64,000 nucleotides of DNA, from NCBI GenBank assembly GCA_028710895.1, contig JAQTTH010000004.1:1-64000 (forward strand). Reading direction: 5' to 3'. The position numbers and the translations under genes are program-made. The stretch's first letter is position 1; each line of letters opens with the position of its first letter. The notes beneath the pieces are model-generated. The model searched no databases. It saw only the letters and a list, made by a program, of their open reading frames with translations, and was not told the origin of the DNA. The DNA comes from Paludibacter sp. (GTDB lineage: Bacteria > Bacteroidota > Bacteroidia > Bacteroidales > Paludibacteraceae). This document shows, one piece after another, positions 5,881-59,754 of the stretch.

Positions 5881-8800
5881 TTATTTTTTTATTATTTTCA
5901 TCGTTTTACTATCGTCAATAGTTACTAACTTCAAAATGTATAATCCACTCTGTAATGTATTTACAGAAATAAATTCATTATCAATAACTTGTTTAGTAAT
6001 CCATGTCCTTCCATTTAAATCAGAAATTGTAAGCAATCCATCACCTCTAACTCCGGAAAGATGTAGAACATCAGCAACCGGATTAGGATAAACAGTTATT
6101 GACGGTATTGATTTATTAGATACTTCGGTTGTCATCGGAGCTATTATAAAGCCATTGGGTATAGATAGGTTTCCATCAAGTGAATTGCTCACATTTACAT
6201 CATAATTACCCCATGAAACATCCTCCGGTATTTTGAAAAATGCTTTTATCGATGTATCATTTACCATAGTAATAATACTTGAATTGATAATTGTGCTACT
6301 GCTTGCCTGACTAAAACTGATAGCAGTACTACTTGCCTGATTAAAATGAGTGTTTGCCCCGGTTATTGTTACTTCTAATGTCTGACCCCGTGTGGCCCTT
6401 ATCTGACTAATTGAAACCAACCGTATGGTTGGGTTTGCTTTAATTTGAAATCCATCTGTCAATATAAGAGAACCATCAGTTGTATCATATACACCTAAGT
6501 CATATTTGCCTACAGGAGCGTTCAGTGGTATTATAAATTGAACCTGAAGAGCTGTATCACTTATCTTTATAATTGAATCTGAATTAATGGAAGTGCCACT
6601 ACTTACCTGATAAAGCCCCGTGCTACTTGCCTGACTAAAATGGGTATTTAAACCGGTTATTGTCACTGTAAGCTTTTGACCTTGTGTAGCAACTGCAGGA
6701 GTAACTGACACCAATTCGATTTTTGGTGTTAACTGAAATCCATTAGGTATTAAAAGATTTCCATCAAGCAAATTAGTCAGATTAACATCATAATTACCTG
6801 CCGAAGCATTTGCAGGTATTGTGAAACTGGCGCTTATCGATGTATCACTTATCTTTGTAATAGTACTTGCATTAATTATTGTACCACTTGCCTGACTAAA
6901 ACTGATAGAGCTACTTGCCTGATTAAAATGAGTGTTTAATCCGGTGATGGTAACTGACAAGGTTTGACCTTGCTTAGCAGTTGCGGGGCTCACAGAAACT
7001 AATCTTTTGGTGGAATCAGCAGTTATTAAAAAACCATTGTTCAAGGTGAGATTACCATCCAGATAATTGCTTAGATTTACATTATAAGTACCTCCCGAAG
7101 CACTTGATGGTATTGTAAAATCTGCACTTATCGAAGTATCATTTATTCTGGAAATTGTACTCGCATTTATAACAGTACTGCTACTTGCCTGACTAAAACT
7201 GATAGAGCTACTTGCCTGATTAAAATGAGTGTTCAATCCGGTGATAGTTACAGCCAGAGTTTGACCTGGCTTGGCAGACGAAGGACTGACTGAAACCAAC
7301 CCTATTTTGGGGATTACTTGAAATCCATTAGGTAATGATAGGTTTCCATCGAGCGAATTACTCAAATTTACATTGTAATTACCTACTGAAGCATTTACCG
7401 GCAGAATAAAACCTGCACTTATCGAAGTATCATTTATTCTGGAAATTGCACTTGCGTTTATGGTGGTACTACTACTTGCCTGGCTAAAACTGATTGAACT
7501 ACTTGCCTGATTGAAATGAGTGTTTAATCCGGTGATGGTGACTGATAAAACTTGACCTTGCATAGCTGATGCCGGACTTACCGAAATCAATCTTTTAATA
7601 GAATCAGAATTAATCAAAAAACCATTGTTCAGCGTTAGATTTCCATCCAGATAATTGCTTAGATTTACATTATAAGTACCTCCCGAAGCACTTGATGGTA
7701 TTGTAAAATCTGCACTTATCGAAGTATCATTTATCCTGGAAATTGTACTCGCATTTATAACAGTACTGCTACTTGCCTGACTAAAACTGATAGAACTACT
7801 TGCCTGATTAAAATGGGTGTTCAATCCGGTAATGGTGACTGCAAGCGTTTGACCGGGTTTGGCAGTTGCTGGACTAACAGACACCAACCCCATTTTGGGA
7901 GTTATCTGAAATCCTTTGGGTATCGATAGACTTCCATCCAGCGGATTCGTCAGATTAACATCGTAATTGCCTCCCGAAGCACTTGCCGGTATAATAAAAC
8001 TGGCATTTAAAGAAGTATCATTTATTCTGGAAATAGCACTCGCATTTATAATAGTACTACTACTTGCCTGACTAAAACTTACAGTACTACTCGCCTGATT
8101 GAAGTGTGTATTTACACCTGTCAGGGTTACATCCAGGGTTTGACCTTGCATGGCAGTTGACGGACTAACTGAAACTAATCTTTTAGTAGAATCAGCAGTT
8201 ATCAGAAAACCATTATTCAATGTTAGGTTCCCATCAATTGGATTACTCAGATTAACCGTATAATTTCCTATCGCAGCATTAATCGGCAATGTGAAGTCAG
8301 CTTGGACAGAAGTATCAGTTATCATATGGAATGTATTTGCATTGATAGTTGTACCACTTGCCTGACTAAAACTGATAGAACTACTCGCCTGATTAAAATG
8401 GGTATTAATTCCGGTTATGGTGACTGCAAGCGTTTGTCCTTGTTTAGCCGAGGATGGACTAACCGAGGCAAGTGCTGCATTTAATTTTACTTGAAATCCG
8501 TTAGGTATCGATAAACTTCCATCAATTGGATTACTCAGGTTTACATCGTAATTGCCCAATGAAGCATTGGCAGGTATTGTAAAGCTGGCACTTATAGAGG
8601 TATCGTTTATTTTTATAATAGATCCGGCATTGATAACCGTACTACTACTTGCCTGACTAAAACTGATAGAATTGGTTGTTTGATTAAAATGGGTGTTTAA
8701 GCCTGATATAATAACTGATAAAGTTTGACCTGGTATAGCTGCTACCTGACTAATTGAAACCAATCTTTTAGTGGAATCAGCAGTTATCAAAAATCCATTA

Positions 8801-9123
8801 TTCAATGTAATTAATCCATCAATCGGATTACTCAGATTCACCGTATAATTTCCTAAAGAAGCATTAAGAGGCAACGTAAAATAAGCTTGGATAGACGTAT
8901 CGGTTATCATATGAAATGTAGTTGCATTGATAGTTGTACTGCTACTTGCCTGACTGAAACTAATAGAGCTGCTTGCCTGGTTAAAGTGCGTGTTTGCTCC
9001 GGTTATTGTCACGGTTAAGGTTTGACCCTGCTTAGCCGTTGATGGACTGACAGACACTAATGATGCCGAATACACACCAAACGAAAGAAGCAATAATGTA
9101 CTGATAAAAATGATTCTTTTCAT
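5881..9123 (-). CDS. Ten-repeat surface protein with T9SS sorting domain
   Basis: 1080 residues with a Sec signal peptide. Ten tandem units of about 97 residues follow; each has the pattern LVSVSP..A..GQTL.VTITG.NTHFNQASSSISFSQASS and an NLS.DG..L..GF end, resembling IPT/TIG-like immunoglobulin-fold repeats. Units alternate between endings of the LNNGFLITADSTKR type and the IPNGFQ..PK type, giving a two-unit superperiod. The last about 75 residues (VYPNPVADVLHLSG to KTMKIIKK) form a type A T9SS sorting module, so the protein should cross the outer membrane and be anchored at the surface. It starts 12 bases after the O-antigen-ligase-like gene ends, implying one operon. Likely role: adhesin or surface fibre, inferred. 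Confidence 0.88.
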   Translation of the reverse strand: MKRIIFISTLLLLSFGVYSASLVSVSPSTAKQGQTLTVTITGANTHFNQASSSISFSQASSSTTINATTFHMITDTSIQAYFTLPLNASLGNYTVNLSNPIDGLITLNNGFLITADSTKRLVSISQVAAIPGQTLSVIISGLNTHFNQTTNSISFSQASSSTVINAGSIIKINDTSISASFTIPANASLGNYDVNLSNPIDGSLSIPNGFQVKLNAALASVSPSSAKQGQTLAVTITGINTHFNQASSSISFSQASGTTINANTFHMITDTSVQADFTLPINAAIGNYTVNLSNPIDGNLTLNNGFLITADSTKRLVSVSPSTAMQGQTLDVTLTGVNTHFNQASSTVSFSQASSSTIINASAISRINDTSLNASFIIPASASGGNYDVNLTNPLDGSLSIPKGFQITPKMGLVSVSPATAKPGQTLAVTITGLNTHFNQASSSISFSQASSSTVINASTISRINDTSISADFTIPSSASGGTYNVNLSNYLDGNLTLNNGFLINSDSIKRLISVSPASAMQGQVLSVTITGLNTHFNQASSSISFSQASSSTTINASAISRINDTSISAGFILPVNASVGNYNVNLSNSLDGNLSLPNGFQVIPKIGLVSVSPSSAKPGQTLAVTITGLNTHFNQASSSISFSQASSSTVINASTISRINDTSISADFTIPSSASGGTYNVNLSNYLDGNLTLNNGFLITADSTKRLVSVSPATAKQGQTLSVTITGLNTHFNQASSSISFSQASGTIINASTITKISDTSISASFTIPANASAGNYDVNLTNLLDGNLLIPNGFQLTPKIELVSVTPAVATQGQKLTVTITGLNTHFSQASSTGLYQVSSGTSINSDSIIKISDTALQVQFIIPLNAPVGKYDLGVYDTTDGSLILTDGFQIKANPTIRLVSISQIRATRGQTLEVTITGANTHFNQASSTAISFSQASSSTIINSSIITMVNDTSIKAFFKIPEDVSWGNYDVNVSNSLDGNLSIPNGFIIAPMTTEVSNKSIPSITVYPNPVADVLHLSGVRGDGLLTISDLNGRTWITKQVIDNEFISVNTLQSGLYILKLVTIDDSKTMKIIKK
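6130..9070 (-). repeat. Coding tandem repeat, about 290-bp units, ten copies
   Basis: The DNA encoding the ten protein repeats is itself highly repetitive. Two blocks, about 7050-7230 and 7640-7820, are almost identical over about 180 bp at an offset of 588 bp, exactly two units. This implies duplication or gene conversion in two-unit steps. The ninth unit is the most diverged. Confidence 0.8.
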
Positions 9124-11270: not shown

Positions 11271-11332
11271 CAAAAATACGAAACATACTTAACATGTCCA
11301 ACTGTTTTCCCATTTATTTTTTAAGCTAATTA
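11271..11332 (-). promoter_or_regulatory. Promoter of the ligase operon with extended conserved upstream block
   Basis: Minus strand: TATTTTTG (11271-11278), 20 bases, then GTTG (11299-11302), followed upstream by an AT-rich block rich in AAAAAATAAAT and ending TAATTAGCTTAA. The same block recurs at the promoter of the leucine-rich-repeat gene (21430-21491). The predicted leader is about 130 bases. The rest of the 359-base gap 11131-11489 shows nothing else recognisable. Confidence 0.65.
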
Positions 11333-11489
11333 AAAATTCCTTTATTGGTGCGGGTTTTATTAAAACAAAACAACCATTCCCATCTTTCAATTGCGAACGG
11401 TTGAGTGCTACAGGTTTATTTGTGGTTGATTAATTATCTCTGGAAATTCATCATCAGGTCATGCTCAACCTGAATTTTGTAAACCTACG

Positions 11490-16895: not shown

Positions 16896-17426
16896 TTATA
16901 TCGTCAAATTATCAGGTTCGTTTAAAACATCATCCAACCATCTGGCTGCGTTATTGGTAATATAATTGTAAATGGATTCATACCTCACGGCATCGGTTAC
17001 AATATAGTCGTAAAAAGAGCGCTGCCATTCGAAATTCAAATTACCTTGTAAATGTATTTGTTTTGAAGAGGTGGTTTTGAACGCACCCATCAATTCCGAA
17101 ACCGATTTAATCTTTATACCATCATCACCCTGTAGGAACAAGTCGCGACCTGTCCTTTTGCGGAATACCTTTTGCGGATTTATTTCAAATAACAGATGCA
17201 CGTGGTTAGGCATTACAACCGAATTATGCATTTCCAAATACGCATATTGATTCTCCAACCAGGTTATTTGATCTTCAACAATTTCACCGAAAACATTCAA
17301 TTGCATTTCATTATTTTCAATCGCTCCCAAATGATATATGCGGTATTTACAGCAAATGGTGATGAAATAAATGTTGTTCGATGTGTAATCAAATCCTTTT
17401 TTTCGATTGCGTTTACGTTTTTTCAT
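16896..17426 (-). CDS. REP-associated tyrosine transposase (RAYT, Y1/HUH family)
   Basis: 176 residues from ATG at 17426; the longer frame adds a hydrophobic stretch not seen in the family. Motifs: ICCKYRIYHL near the start, the HUH pair His75-x-His77 in MPNHVHLL, and candidate nucleophile Tyr139 or Tyr141 in SFYDYIV, followed by RYESIYNYITNNAARW. These single-stranded-DNA transposases act on short REP palindromes. Perfect palindromes lie upstream at 17501-17520 and 17641-17660. A degenerate palindrome copy lies inside the coding region (residues about 92-99, TGRDLFLQ). Length and motifs appear intact, so it may be active. Confidence 0.88.
   Translation of the reverse strand: MKKRKRNRKKGFDYTSNNIYFITICCKYRIYHLGAIENNEMQLNVFGEIVEDQITWLENQYAYLEMHNSVVMPNHVHLLFEINPQKVFRKRTGRDLFLQGDDGIKIKSVSELMGAFKTTSSKQIHLQGNLNFEWQRSFYDYIVTDAVRYESIYNYITNNAARWLDDVLNEPDNLTI
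17132..17155. repeat. REP-like sequence inside the RAYT coding region
   Basis: This 24-base stretch matches the left flank plus palindrome at 17497-17520 at 22 of 24 positions and is read in frame as part of the transposase. The centre GTCGCGAC is intact. Confidence 0.7.
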
Positions 17427-17496
17427 TTGTATCGTTCCGCATATTATTCCGATTATAAAAATAAAATCAATTGCCAAAAATCACCCACGTACCCAC

Positions 17497-20900: not shown

Positions 20901-21151
20901 TACGATTCAATACTCGTTACCGAATAAGTTACCGAATTATCAATAACCGAATCCGGAATATTAATTTCTCCAGTTGGTGTGCCGTTTCTCTTTACACTTA
21001 CGGTATTGGGTGAACCAACAGCAGTAACTGTATAAATCATTTTACCATCCGTTGACTTAAATGTGCTACCAACAGTCTGTCCATAAATTAAATTAGCTGA
21101 CAAGAAAGTCAATATGGCAATAGTCAAACTGCGAAGAAGTTTAGTTTTCAT
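17996..21151 (-). CDS. BspA-like leucine-rich-repeat surface protein with T9SS-type C-terminus
   Basis: 1051 residues with a signal peptide ending YGQ. Two blocks of BspA/LRR_5 repeats (about 23 residues, pattern IPNSVTSIGNGAFAGCNGLTSVT) span roughly 60-440 and 490-960. Each block is introduced by a similar beta-rich head (YTVTAVGSPNTVSVKR at about 38 and YVITDPINKKMTVVEN at about 465), so the protein looks like an internal duplication. The last about 70 residues (GKVSVYNMAGQWQTGG, LTSGPYLVIVDVDG, KVIVY) fit a T9SS sorting module. Probable surface adhesin or host/particle-binding protein. Its promoter (21430-21461) is preceded by the 22-bp tandem array. Confidence 0.88.
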   Translation of the reverse strand: MKTKLLRSLTIAILTFLSANLIYGQTVGSTFKSTDGKMIYTVTAVGSPNTVSVKRNGTPTGEINIPDSVIDNSVTYSVTSIESYAFSYCNGLTSVTIGGRMMSIGSYAFTNCNGITLLTLGSGVKSIGQYAFKECNGLTAVNFNASNCDDLTYTSISSTGSVFAVTIGSNVMRVPASLFSGCSKVGSVVFDGTPKCAEIGNRAFIGCNGLTSITIPNSVTNIGIQAFSFCIGLTSITIPNSATSIGNGAFAGCNCSFIVDATNPNYSVVDDILYNKDQTKLIQCPIFKTGNFVIPTSVKNIGEFAFVGCSGLTSIPIPNTITSIGNWVFGGCSGLTSVTIPNSVTSIGDGVFSDCSGLTSVIIPNSVTSIGMSAFQYCIGLTSVTLPNSITTIGNYAFYVCSGLSAIILQNSSPPTLGGLSVFSNMTSRAKLYVPFGTKSVYNTNFGASFDQGDNIIEGTEFYTEGGIKYVITDPINKKMTVVENLPAYTGSITVPAKVSYNSQLYSVSAIGNDAFSTCNGLTSVSIPNSVISVGNYAFKGSVDLTSTTIPNSVAIIGVNAFQGCTGLTSITIPDSVDSIGTNVFQGCTGLTSCTMGKFMKHIGEYAFQGCTGLNSVTIPDSVSSVGANAFQGCTGMISCSIGKSMKNIGTNAFQGCNSLTSIIIPDSVDSIRTNAFSDCSSITSVILGSSLINIAANAFQYCTKLTSITIPESVISIGDNAFQGCTGMTSINFNAVNCNSMGSSNNYTNTMVFFGCTSLTTLTIGDKVKRIPSYAFPRCSTLTSVSIGKSLLSIGDYAFHSCAKLALKTIPDSVTSIGKLAFYGCVGLTDISFGKGVQTIGNYAFYGCTGLTSVSFNATNCTTMGDYYSPVFKGCTKLANLTIGNNVTILPNSAFNSCSKLATITMQTPTPPTLIGNSVFFGISSGAILYVPQGSKTDYMNYNTNSTYTNFFSSAGSTTDGARIIESITAVIGIDTVNACVNSNRNRQIVINSNDVLRGKVSVYNMAGQWQTGGRLEGLVTVLSKHLTSGPYLVIVDVDGRIKNEKVIVY

Positions 21152-21429
21152 AAATGATTGTGTAATTATTTAGTTTCTAGTTCAATTATCTTTCTCGTTT
21201 TTTTTCTTTTTTTAATCGCCAGGGATAGTCGATTCTTTTATTTAATCAATAAGATTGCCAAAGGTAAGCACTTATATGTTAATCAAAATCTAAATTTCAG
21301 AACAGTCTTTTTTGTGCTACTCCCCTCAGTCTTAACATATAAAATTGCGCATATATTTACTATAGACTTTTTTAATTGCGTATATCTATCCGATAGAATG
21401 GCTTATATGTAGTTTATCTTTTTCGCTTC

Positions 21430-21491
21430 CAAAGATAAATAACATACTTAACACATCCAAACATTTCTCTATTTATTTTTTAAGCTAATTA
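21430..21491 (-). promoter_or_regulatory. Promoter of the LRR gene with extended block shared with the ligase operon
   Basis: Minus strand: TATCTTTG (21430-21437), exactly 20 bases, then TTTG (21458-21461), a perfect consensus. The spacer (GTTAAGTATGTT core) and upstream AT block (TTAGCTTAAAAAATAAAT) match the promoter at 11271-11332 closely. The predicted leader of the LRR gene is about 270 bases, otherwise featureless. Confidence 0.7.
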
Positions 21492-21506
21492 TAAAGTCTG
21501 TAAAAT

Positions 21507-22008
21507 TACATGACGTTTATGGGAGTTACATAAGCTATAATCGTTCATTACATAGGGTGCAAAAGGATATTACATTTAGGGTAATACCCAGTTACATGGG
21601 AGATAGTATGCTTGTACATGAGGTGCATTATGCTATTACATAAGGGTTGATAGGGTGTTGCATAGGGTGCATTATGCCATTACAAATAGGGAGATAGGGC
21701 ATTACACCAGGTGTGATAGGCTATTACACGGGGGTAATGGGTCAATACATAGAGTGAGAATGGCATTGCAGAAGGGGTAATATGGCACTACATAAGGTGC
21801 AATATAGCAATACATGAGCAGTAATATAGCAATACATAAGCAGTAATATAGCAATACATGAGTAGCAATATAGCAATACACAAGGGATAAATTGATAATA
21901 CATTCACTGAAATATAACATTACATGGGGTGCAGAATAGGAATACATAGGATATAATATAGCAATACAGCATGTGTATTATAACATTACATTGCCTGTAA
22001 TTAAATAT
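21507..22008. repeat. 22-bp phased tandem array, about 23 degenerate units
   Basis: TACA (or TGCA) recurs at 21507, 21527, 21549, 21571, 21593, 21615, 21637, 21659, 21681, 21703, 21725, 21746, 21767, 21789, 21811, 21833, 21855, 21877, 21899, 21921, 21943, 21965 and 21987. Consensus about TTACATAGGGTGCAATATAG plus two bases. Sequence identity between units is modest but spacing is almost invariant. It lies directly upstream of the LRR gene promoter and downstream of the gene at 22128-23264. The reading frames inside it are not convincing genes. Confidence 0.88.
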
Positions 22009-22127
22009 ATCACAGGCTGTAAATGATCATATCATTTACTAAAATAATAGTTTTTCTGCTGTGATAATTTGTCCGATTGAGTGACGAAATACGGGTTTTC
22101 GGGATGAAACACGGCAAACACATGCGT

Positions 22128-23264
22128 CTATTCACCCGTAACAGGTACGGTGGTGGTACTGATTTCGGGGGCGGTAAATGTCTTTCGCTCGTAGCGGGGC
22201 GTGATTGTTTTTTCTGTGTAGGTTTTATCCTCGAAATACTTTGTTTCCCACAGCACCGAAATTTTCACGTTGGTGTCAATTCCCTGAAATGTATTGTCGT
22301 TGAGCAAGCCAATGTAAAAAGTGCCCTGCGTTTTCGTTGTGTTTTTACCAAAGGCAGCAATTCCTTTTCCTTTATCGAAATGAGTAAAGGGTTTATCGTT
22401 CAGAAACAAGTCGGAGTTTTTGCTGTCGGGGATAAACCAATAGGCTACATCCTCACCCATGGTGGGCATTACAAATCCGGCAACGGTACCAATGGCATAT
22501 CCCGCCAGTGGTCCGCCTCCCAGTATGGTGGCAGCTCCCGAAGCAATGTTACGGAAGATATTCACGTTCTTTTTCCAGGCTTCGGTGGCCTCTTTGCCTA
22601 CCCCTATCCAGTAGGCCCACGCAACTACTTTCTTCGATTGTTCATCTGTTATCTCATTTTGTGGCAATGTCACTTCTATTGCTTTCAGATTTTTGCTGCC
22701 AATAATGCTTTTGGAATTTACCCGCTCCGTTTTGTCAATCACAATGTCTTCCGACAATTCGGTTCGTAGCAGTTCTTTCCGGGTTTTCTGAGTATAAAGT
22801 GTATCGTAGCCAACCACTACATCTTTTGTGTAGGTTTTGTAGGTAGTCAGTTGCTGCTGTTGCCAGGTAACGTTTGAATTAAAACCGGCTGTAAGATCGC
22901 TCGCAGGTGTACGCTGAATTTTGAACTTGCAAACCCTGCCGGTAGGAGACAGATTCTTCAACCGGAAAACATACACACCTTCTTTGGGGACTACAATTGT
23001 TTTCAAGTTTAGCTTTGTGACATTGATATCCGAATACTTTGAGTTGGTGGGGTATTCGAGCACTTCCACTTCACTCAGGTAATTCTTATCAGCCACTTCG
23101 AGCGTAAAGCTTATTTTATCGCCTGCTGCAAAACCGTAGTACAGTTTGGTTTCCTGCTGAGGTTCAATCTTTACTGTTTGTGCTGTCAGGTCGATAGTCT
23201 GTCGACCAAAGCTTGTTGCCGTAAAAAGTGATAAGCCAAAGATTGTGAGCAATAATCTGTTCAT
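22128..23264 (-). CDS. Secreted hypothetical protein
   Basis: 378 residues with a Sec signal peptide ending SFGRQ. Residues about 20-130 look like a beta-sandwich (KIEPQQETKLYYGFAAGDKISFTLEV, then VFRLKNLSPTGRVCKFKIQR). Around 230-275 a Gly/Ala-rich hydrophobic stretch (IASGAATILGGGPLAGYAIGT) may insert in a membrane. No known catalytic motif and no sorting module. Both neighbours on the minus strand are far away, so it is probably monocistronic. Function unknown. Confidence 0.75.
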   Translation of the reverse strand: MNRLLLTIFGLSLFTATSFGRQTIDLTAQTVKIEPQQETKLYYGFAAGDKISFTLEVADKNYLSEVEVLEYPTNSKYSDINVTKLNLKTIVVPKEGVYVFRLKNLSPTGRVCKFKIQRTPASDLTAGFNSNVTWQQQQLTTYKTYTKDVVVGYDTLYTQKTRKELLRTELSEDIVIDKTERVNSKSIIGSKNLKAIEVTLPQNEITDEQSKKVVAWAYWIGVGKEATEAWKKNVNIFRNIASGAATILGGGPLAGYAIGTVAGFVMPTMGEDVAYWFIPDSKNSDLFLNDKPFTHFDKGKGIAAFGKNTTKTQGTFYIGLLNDNTFQGIDTNVKISVLWETKYFEDKTYTEKTITPRYERKTFTAPEISTTTVPVTGE

Positions 23265-59426: not shown

Positions 59427-59502
59427 ACAGGTAGATTTAAAGTTATTCCGTAGCAAAAATAACAAAAATTTATATACAACATAACAAAACAGCAAGTAAA
59501 AT

Positions 59503-59754
59503 ATTGCGGTTGATAGTTCATTCGCAATATCCGAAACATGGGAAATTGCGGCTGATAGATCATTGGCAATTTCCGAAGGCTATAATATTGCCGCTGAGTA
59601 CTTATTGGCACATTCCGAAAGTTGGGAAAGTGCCGTTGATAGTTCATTGGCAATATCACATATAAAGGAAATTGCCGCTAAGTAGTTAGCGGCAATTTCT
59701 ATCAATTATTTAATTGCGAATGATACATGAGAGGCAATACTAAGAGAACTAAAA
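59503..59754. repeat. 42-bp tandem array, six units, each with an inverted repeat
   Basis: Units start at 59503, 59545, 59587, 59629, 59671 and 59713, spaced exactly 42 bp. Most units carry ATTGCC (or ATTGCG) and GGCAAT (or CGCAAT) 14 bases apart, so each can form a small hairpin; in the first unit both arms have changed together (ATTGCG with CGCAAT) and in the fifth the pairing is ATTGCCGC with GCGGCAAT. It fills the space between the AraC-like gene and the DUF3820-like gene and slightly overlaps the latter's end. The frame that reads across it repeats a 14-residue pattern and is not a convincing gene. Confidence 0.88.

Follow-up and report, generated by a model that had tools for sequence, protein, structure and literature searches.

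A phased 22-bp tandem array beside a dispersed surface-protein promoter in Paludibacter, and the intergenic minisatellite class to which it belongs

The nearest described relatives of the array studied here, among the papers listed in literature searches, are three repeats of P. gingivalis: BrickBuilt (23 nt), MITEPgRS (41 nt) and a set of 22-nt tandem repeats. According to the available portion of its description, BrickBuilt consists of imperfect tandem units without spacers, present in up to 22.8 copies and always intergenic, and forms one sequence family of 19 copies with a leader, a tail and inverted-repeat ends, while promoter activity is reported for its flanks (PMC4596501). In the same portion of that source, no homology to BrickBuilt is reported for either MITEPgRS/MITE464, with its 41-nt repeats, or the 22-nt tandem repeats, and the 22-, 23- and 41-nt minisatellites are treated as separate elements (PMC4596501). 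The TAACTGA heptamer repeats are described, in the accessible text of PMC4679880, as intergenic direct repeats that mostly occur in two to six copies, including in P. propionicigenes WB4. Finally, BldC, a small regulatory protein of Streptomyces, can coat direct repeats of variable length in head-to-tail fashion (PMC5859096, available in part).

The array examined here lies within a window of Paludibacter DNA (the whole stretch analysed, 64,000 nucleotides). A first-pass annotation had reported about 23 degenerate units over 480 bases; the array is real, but this count was slightly low, since a periodic profile fit recovers 25 units (Table 1; spacings of 22 bp 21 times, 21 bp twice and 20 bp once), TRF reports 23.7 copies of period 22 at 21505–22022, and a phase set by hand yields 24 units at 21505–22028 (spacings 22 ×20, 21 ×2, 20 ×1). 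Both the fit and TRF bear out a regular period carried by units of drifted sequence, and the spacing first described as invariant is nearly so, 21 of the 24 spacings being equal to 22, but with three small slips. The comparison with shuffled sequence, set beforehand as the test of this regularity, places the array clearly above chance: the lag-22 self-identity of 21495–22010 is 0.569, against 0.280 ± 0.022 in 300 dinucleotide-preserving shuffles, of which the maximum over all lags from 2 to 79 is 0.377. Self-identity at lags 7 (0.257) and 14 (0.285) is at background level. The array is intergenic, at 348 bp from the open reading frame of the LRR protein and 84 bp from that of the 378-aa protein.

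In the hand-set phase, the units diverge from their consensus by about 32% (167 deviations over 528 positions; 22 columns, 7.6 deviations per column), and a TACA core (plus-strand reading) is kept, with T in 23, A in 21, C in 24 and A in 24 of the 24 units. Since the three slips were bridged by visual anchoring, the hand-set phase somewhat favours core conservation; in the automatic fit, too, two columns are invariant, whereas permutation of the deviations inside each unit predicts 0.00. A kept core combined with a scarcity of indels is what a phased binding array would show.

Table 1. Features of the window, with the loci of related promoter copies and array families.
Feature	Position or loci	Strand	Remarks
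Phased array of 24–25 degenerate 22-bp units, core TACA	21499..22044	no strand	profile fit, TRF and hand phase; non-coding
Dispersed promoter element of the LRR gene	21413..21498	-	TTTGG at 21461–21457, TATCTTTG at 21437–21430; similar copies elsewhere in the genome
BspA-type LRR protein, 1051 aa	17996..21151	-	T9SS sorting domain just above the cut-off; downstream of promoter and array
378-aa protein, no named family	22128..23264	-	3' end 84 bp from the array
Second, unrelated array of the same class	59490..59741	no strand	six 42-bp units, all exactly 42 apart
Promoter copies with array	L169, L171, L172, L173, L174, L180		array upstream
Promoter copies without array	L168, L175–L179		
Small array families	L161/L163/L183; L019/L029; L173 with L014; L180/L182; G026 set		
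Small array family	L059 with an array of L040		in another species

Regarding the surroundings of the array, the T9SS sorting domain of the LRR protein scores 23.8 bits for a cut-off of 23, and the 378-aa protein matches no named family in Pfam or NCBIfam. Scans of the window returned no Rfam match at gathering scores and no tRNA. Elsewhere in the window, the protein encoded at 16896–17477 resembles a REP-associated tyrosine transposase, albeit below the NCBIfam cut-off (45.1 vs. 80 bits), and a tandem repeat of about 291–297 bp (6623–9061, 7–8 copies) lies within an open reading frame of 1080 aa (5881–9123, minus strand). Each unit of the second array of the window holds a dyad, ATTGC...GGCAAT, and the array is strongly hairpin-prone (z −6.6 and −7.9).

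A search of other genomes for the same array had been suggested from the outset. By BLAST, a second full copy was found neither in the own genome of the window nor in 47 congeners, nor among 118 further genomes from the order and 59 from the phylum. Beyond the array itself, the own genome yielded only four matches of 20–28 bp (E 0.18–0.64), and the best match outside it is 27 bp long (G010, E = 0.004). A profile built from the window array and one array of genome G026, whose own match was discounted (profile R1, locus L135), gave one match in the own genome (C33:318308, E 2.7e-5) at a place without detectable array; among the matches examined, L156, which belongs to the own genome, as well as L140 and L142 lack an array at z≥5, and L143 has just a 24-lag signal inside an open reading frame. 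By profile comparison, the one well-supported independent relative is found in G033 (L138; R1 match E = 2.9e-5), where 24 units are separated by 23 spacings of exactly 22 and resemble the window array in their GGGTGYAATAT part (p = 0.003, best of seven profile comparisons). TACA is not conserved in this relative, an argument against a single protein that would recognise TACA in different species. The arrays of G026 are weakly similar to that of the window (p 0.02–0.09 for four arrays), and two of its 22-bp arrays (L148 1284–1630 and L151 1344–1670) share about 350 nt, flanks included, at about 70% identity, so that these array-plus-flank copies look as a mobile element would. The shared flanks carry AAGTGTCTA repeats, like the leader and tail of a MITE. 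The 22-bp array of L180, considered as the same family in reverse, was dropped following profile comparison (p = 0.56).

The nearest relative (G017) has no array at a position shared with the window. Its homologue of the 378-aa gene (71% identity) shows no array on the 3' side and an unrelated 21-bp array on the 5' side, the LRR gene does not adjoin this homologue, and the 378-aa protein is the only one of eight window proteins tested to match the locus. In two genomes other than that of the window, homologues of the 378-aa gene have period-21 arrays on their 5' side (L014 2630–2902, L007 5537–5851), with units unlike each other and unlike those of the window.

Similar arrays were looked for more widely with TRF (lenient penalties, consensus of 15–60, at least four copies, indels tolerated), of which the lengths are approximate, a double unit being often reported. 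Across 1.264 Mb from the own genome and G002 (one contig of 3,685,504 bases, which we take to be the chromosome of P. propionicigenes WB4), TRF found 24 non-coding arrays with a consensus of 21 (×7), 22 (×1), 40 (×3), 41 (×6), 42 (×6) or 43 (×1). The 685 kb sampled outside the genus gave none in the order (325 kb) and one, of period 33, in the class and phylum. No array was reported by TRF in 330 kb of other congeners, hence either density varies among members of the genus or the selection of short contigs plays a part. At z≥8, a lag scan recovered 16 non-coding arrays in 864 kb of the own genome (lag 14 ×1, 21 ×7, 22 ×1, 24 ×1, 41 ×1, 42 ×5), 12 in 400 kb of G002 (14 ×2, 21 ×2, 41 ×3, 42 ×5), three in 330 kb of other congeners (14 ×2, 22 ×1), one (lag 23) in 325 kb from the rest of the order and none in 360 kb of class and phylum; on visual inspection, those at lag 14 consist of 7-mers and the one at lag 24 of an 8-mer. 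The two approaches differ at the margins: the lag scan (z≥7) missed three of the 24 TRF arrays (L032, L047, L076), which have 12–17% indels, and TRF missed two arrays seen by the lag scan (L059 and L077). With 15 arrays at z≥7 and period ≥15 in the 864 kb of the own genome, a non-random sample drawn from contigs C33, C22, C37, C28 and C21, extrapolation to 4.9 Mb gives about 85 arrays.

Two side observations concern other periods. The 7-bp-unit arrays (lag 14) of three Paludibacter genomes (L041 12469–12702, L055 16388–16621, L067 12431–12627, L125 5526–6116) recall the published TAACTGA heptamer repeats, while some period-21 arrays (L173 1442–1711, L163 213–1268) can pass for open frames encoding a seven-residue repeat, and spurious heptad-repeat proteins may therefore be called at such places by gene finders.

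Profiles were fitted to 39 arrays, of which 38 belong to Paludibacter genomes and one (L086) to another member of the order. Most of them are unrelated in sequence according to profile comparison, apart from a few small families (Table 1), of which the L019/L029 family has shared flanks. Spacings equal the array's own period in 360 of 372 cases. Over 34 fitted arrays (384 units), we counted 2308 substitutions relative to the unit consensus and 11 indels, i.e., 0.005 indels per substitution, against 0.14 (88 gap openings for 627 mismatches) in 23 homologous pairs of array-free non-coding DNA (65–88% identity). Indels are thus about 29 times fewer per substitution in the arrays, in a fitted set partly chosen for register, with paired indels within one unit being invisible and gap counting differing between the fit and BLAST alignments. 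Column conservation is uneven at p<0.05 in 26 of the 34 arrays. Should many sequence-unrelated arrays, in a genus related to that of P. gingivalis, have the same two lengths in common and be refractory to indels, what they share is length rather than sequence. The cause would then be either a duplication step linked to the turns of the helix or a protein reading the register. A broader reading, which we consider rather doubtful, is that the dozens of mostly unrelated intergenic arrays of some Paludibacter, with lengths quantised to about two and four helical turns and a register protected from indels, imply such a register-reading factor. This factor, if real, would read helical register and not base sequence, and would be loaded along a single side of the double helix at selected intergenic places, a dispersed promoter being attached to some of these.

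That promoter, of the TTG/TATCTTTG type, sits between the array and the LRR gene, at 44 bp from the array (from 21461 to 21505), in agreement with the 45 bases first given. On the plus strand, its letters are CCAAA from 21457 (TTTGG on the minus strand) and CAAAGATA from 21430 (TATCTTTG on the minus strand), the two boxes being named −33 and −7 after what we take to be the Bacteroidetes promoter consensus. When 21152–22127 was searched against the own genome, the array came out as single and the promoter side as repeated. A profile of 78 positions, computed from the LRR promoter and four siblings chosen by BLAST matches of the promoter part, not by arrays, has 13 matches at E≤0.01 in the own genome. 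Leaving the window aside, a different array occurs within 1.5 kb of six of the 12 other strong copies and lies upstream in every case, for base rates of 74/1482 3-kb windows (binomial P = 1e-5) and 19/158 genes preceded by a gap of 300 bp or more (P = 0.0015); among the eight copies that did not enter the profile, three have an array (P = 0.006 and 0.06, the latter at the 12% base rate). Among the six arrays, an open reading frame intervenes between that of L171 and its promoter, and that of L172 (= L163) overlaps a possible open reading frame of 351 aa. Weaker matches (E 0.03–1) have an array in two of 12 cases, both about 1 kb upstream. Regarding other genomes, G017 has five promoter matches, including one with a 21-bp array directly upstream (L195) and one with a 16-lag array downstream (L197), while the single match in G002 is without array and G026 has no match at E≤0.05. 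The link between array and promoter likely holds in this genome, but it is not a rule. Gene orientation around 25 arrays (15 co-directional, 5 convergent, 4 divergent, 1 unknown) indicates that promoter control cannot be a general role, since five arrays lie between convergent genes.

The genes behind the promoter element include those of a caspase-domain protein, a serpin and an O-antigen ligase-like protein, and one gene with a sub-threshold DUF4062 match. An extended form of the element, TTATTTATCTTTGG with a GCGAAAA start, is seen in the window at 11271–11339 and 21413–21498 and at L160–L163. Within one genome it precedes the genes of the LRR protein, the O-antigen ligase-like protein, the caspase-domain protein and the serpin, and it could mark a regulon.

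The reading that we tentatively prefer, with less than even confidence, is that the window array is a phased minisatellite platform, in which a protein would keep the register and the array would be joined to the promoter. The array would have grown by tandem duplication of a 22-bp unit, after which point mutation would have drifted the units while register and TACA core stayed, as the pattern of the units displays. A DNA-binding protein sitting on one unit after the other, at intervals of about two helical turns, would account for the retention of register and core; as the arrays differ in sequence, this putative protein would be more nucleoid-like than a specific regulator. The array and the dispersed promoter of the T9SS LRR gene would then form one array-plus-promoter block, where the loaded array may set the local DNA topology or stop read-through from the 378-aa gene. 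The helical phasing and protein binding proposed in the first-pass annotation gain from the kept core, the few indels and the recurrence of the array-promoter pairing, but at 10.5 bp per turn an exact two-turn spacing would be 21 bp and not 22, and successive sites would rotate by about 34 degrees. Also weighing against the platform, uneven columns can stem from variants inherited by blocks of units, the fitted arrays are partly selected for register and TRF adds three with many indels, half of the 12 other promoter copies are without array, five arrays lie between convergent genes, and no position is shared with the nearest relative.

A neutral or selfish minisatellite is nearly as likely. 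Arrays would then arise by slippage or MITE-like turnover, the preference for 21 and 42 would be mutational (duplication favouring whole helical turns), and register and core would have no function. This fits units that are mostly unrelated, a position not common to the nearest relative, small dispersed families with shared flanks (G026; L019/L029), the unremarkable orientation of neighbouring genes and, in the available portion of PMC4596501, the 22-, 23- and 41-nt minisatellites of P. gingivalis in MITE-like elements. It sits less easily with the roughly 29-fold deficit of indels per substitution, itself subject to an ascertainment effect, with a TACA core that is invariant despite 32% divergence and with the association with one promoter type. 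There is a smaller chance that the array acts as RNA, its small stem-loops protecting or ending the 3' transcript end of the 378-aa gene or another read-through transcript. Minus-strand RNA of the window array is indeed more stable than column-permuted arrays (z = −3.2), and z≤−3 is reached on at least one strand by six of 11 arrays of period 41/42 and two of three of period 22, but by just two of 12 of period 21. Furthermore, the plus strand of the window array has z = −0.35, its units show no convincing pair covariation, and neither an Rfam match at gathering scores in the window nor a terminator-like site in 21100–22200 was found.

The remaining explanations are far less probable. Plasmid iterons have a comparable spacing of about 22 bp and a conserved core, and the array resembles them in both; the iteron-like reading first put forward, here iterons that would serve replication or partition (with a Rep- or Par-type protein) and be left from an integrated plasmid, is nevertheless very improbable, as no Rep or Par protein turned up in a Pfam scan of 10 window proteins (a minority of the window genes), many unrelated arrays per genome misfit one initiator and a literature search on iteron spacing found nothing. 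We regard intrinsically bent DNA, also suggested at first, as equally improbable: the position upstream of a promoter would suit it, but a wedge model predicts no intrinsic bend (straightness 0.945 vs. 0.927 in column-permuted arrays, z = +0.57), the mean z of 29 arrays is −0.21 and the A/T autocorrelation at 10–11 bp is near zero in the window array. Least credible of all is a remnant of coding sequence with a repeated peptide. Period 21 equals seven codons and can leave a frame open (the 89-aa frame of L173, the 351-aa frame overlapping the array of L163), but 22 is not a multiple of three, and a coding origin of the window array is refuted by 8 to 20 stops in each of its six frames.

Set against known systems, the window array is no more curved than permuted sequence (z = +0.57), whereas a bent-DNA element should exceed it, the window matches no Rfam family of structured RNA at the gathering threshold, and the cognate Rep gene expected near plasmid iterons is absent from the 10 proteins scanned, a minority of the window genes. 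With BldC, known here from a partly available source and from Streptomyces, the likeness is one of principle, the coating of direct repeats. Unlike the TAACTGA arrays, as described in the accessible text, the window array has no lag-7 signal, although the lag-14 arrays of the scan look like heptamers. MITEPgRS/MITE464 (41 nt) and the 22-nt repeats of P. gingivalis, likened by length alone from the available description, fall in the same two length bands as the Paludibacter arrays. The comparison with BrickBuilt, drawn from the same portion of its description, goes further: both have imperfect units without spacers, an intergenic location and a similar period, within the same bacterial order; BrickBuilt lies 49–591 nt from coding sequences, a range that includes both distances of the window array, and its flanks have promoter activity, while the window array adjoins a predicted promoter-like element. 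However, BrickBuilt has a unit of 23 nt and not 22, many copies per genome, whereas the window array is single in its own genome by BLAST, with only the promoter side repeated, and a leader and tail with terminal inverted repeats, whereas none of the seven inverted-repeat pairs in 21140–22140 brackets the array symmetrically as element ends. On account of these three differences (unit length, copy number and leader/tail ends), we file the window array as BrickBuilt-like rather than as BrickBuilt, and regard it as belonging to a class of phased, intergenic minisatellites that occurs in Paludibacter.
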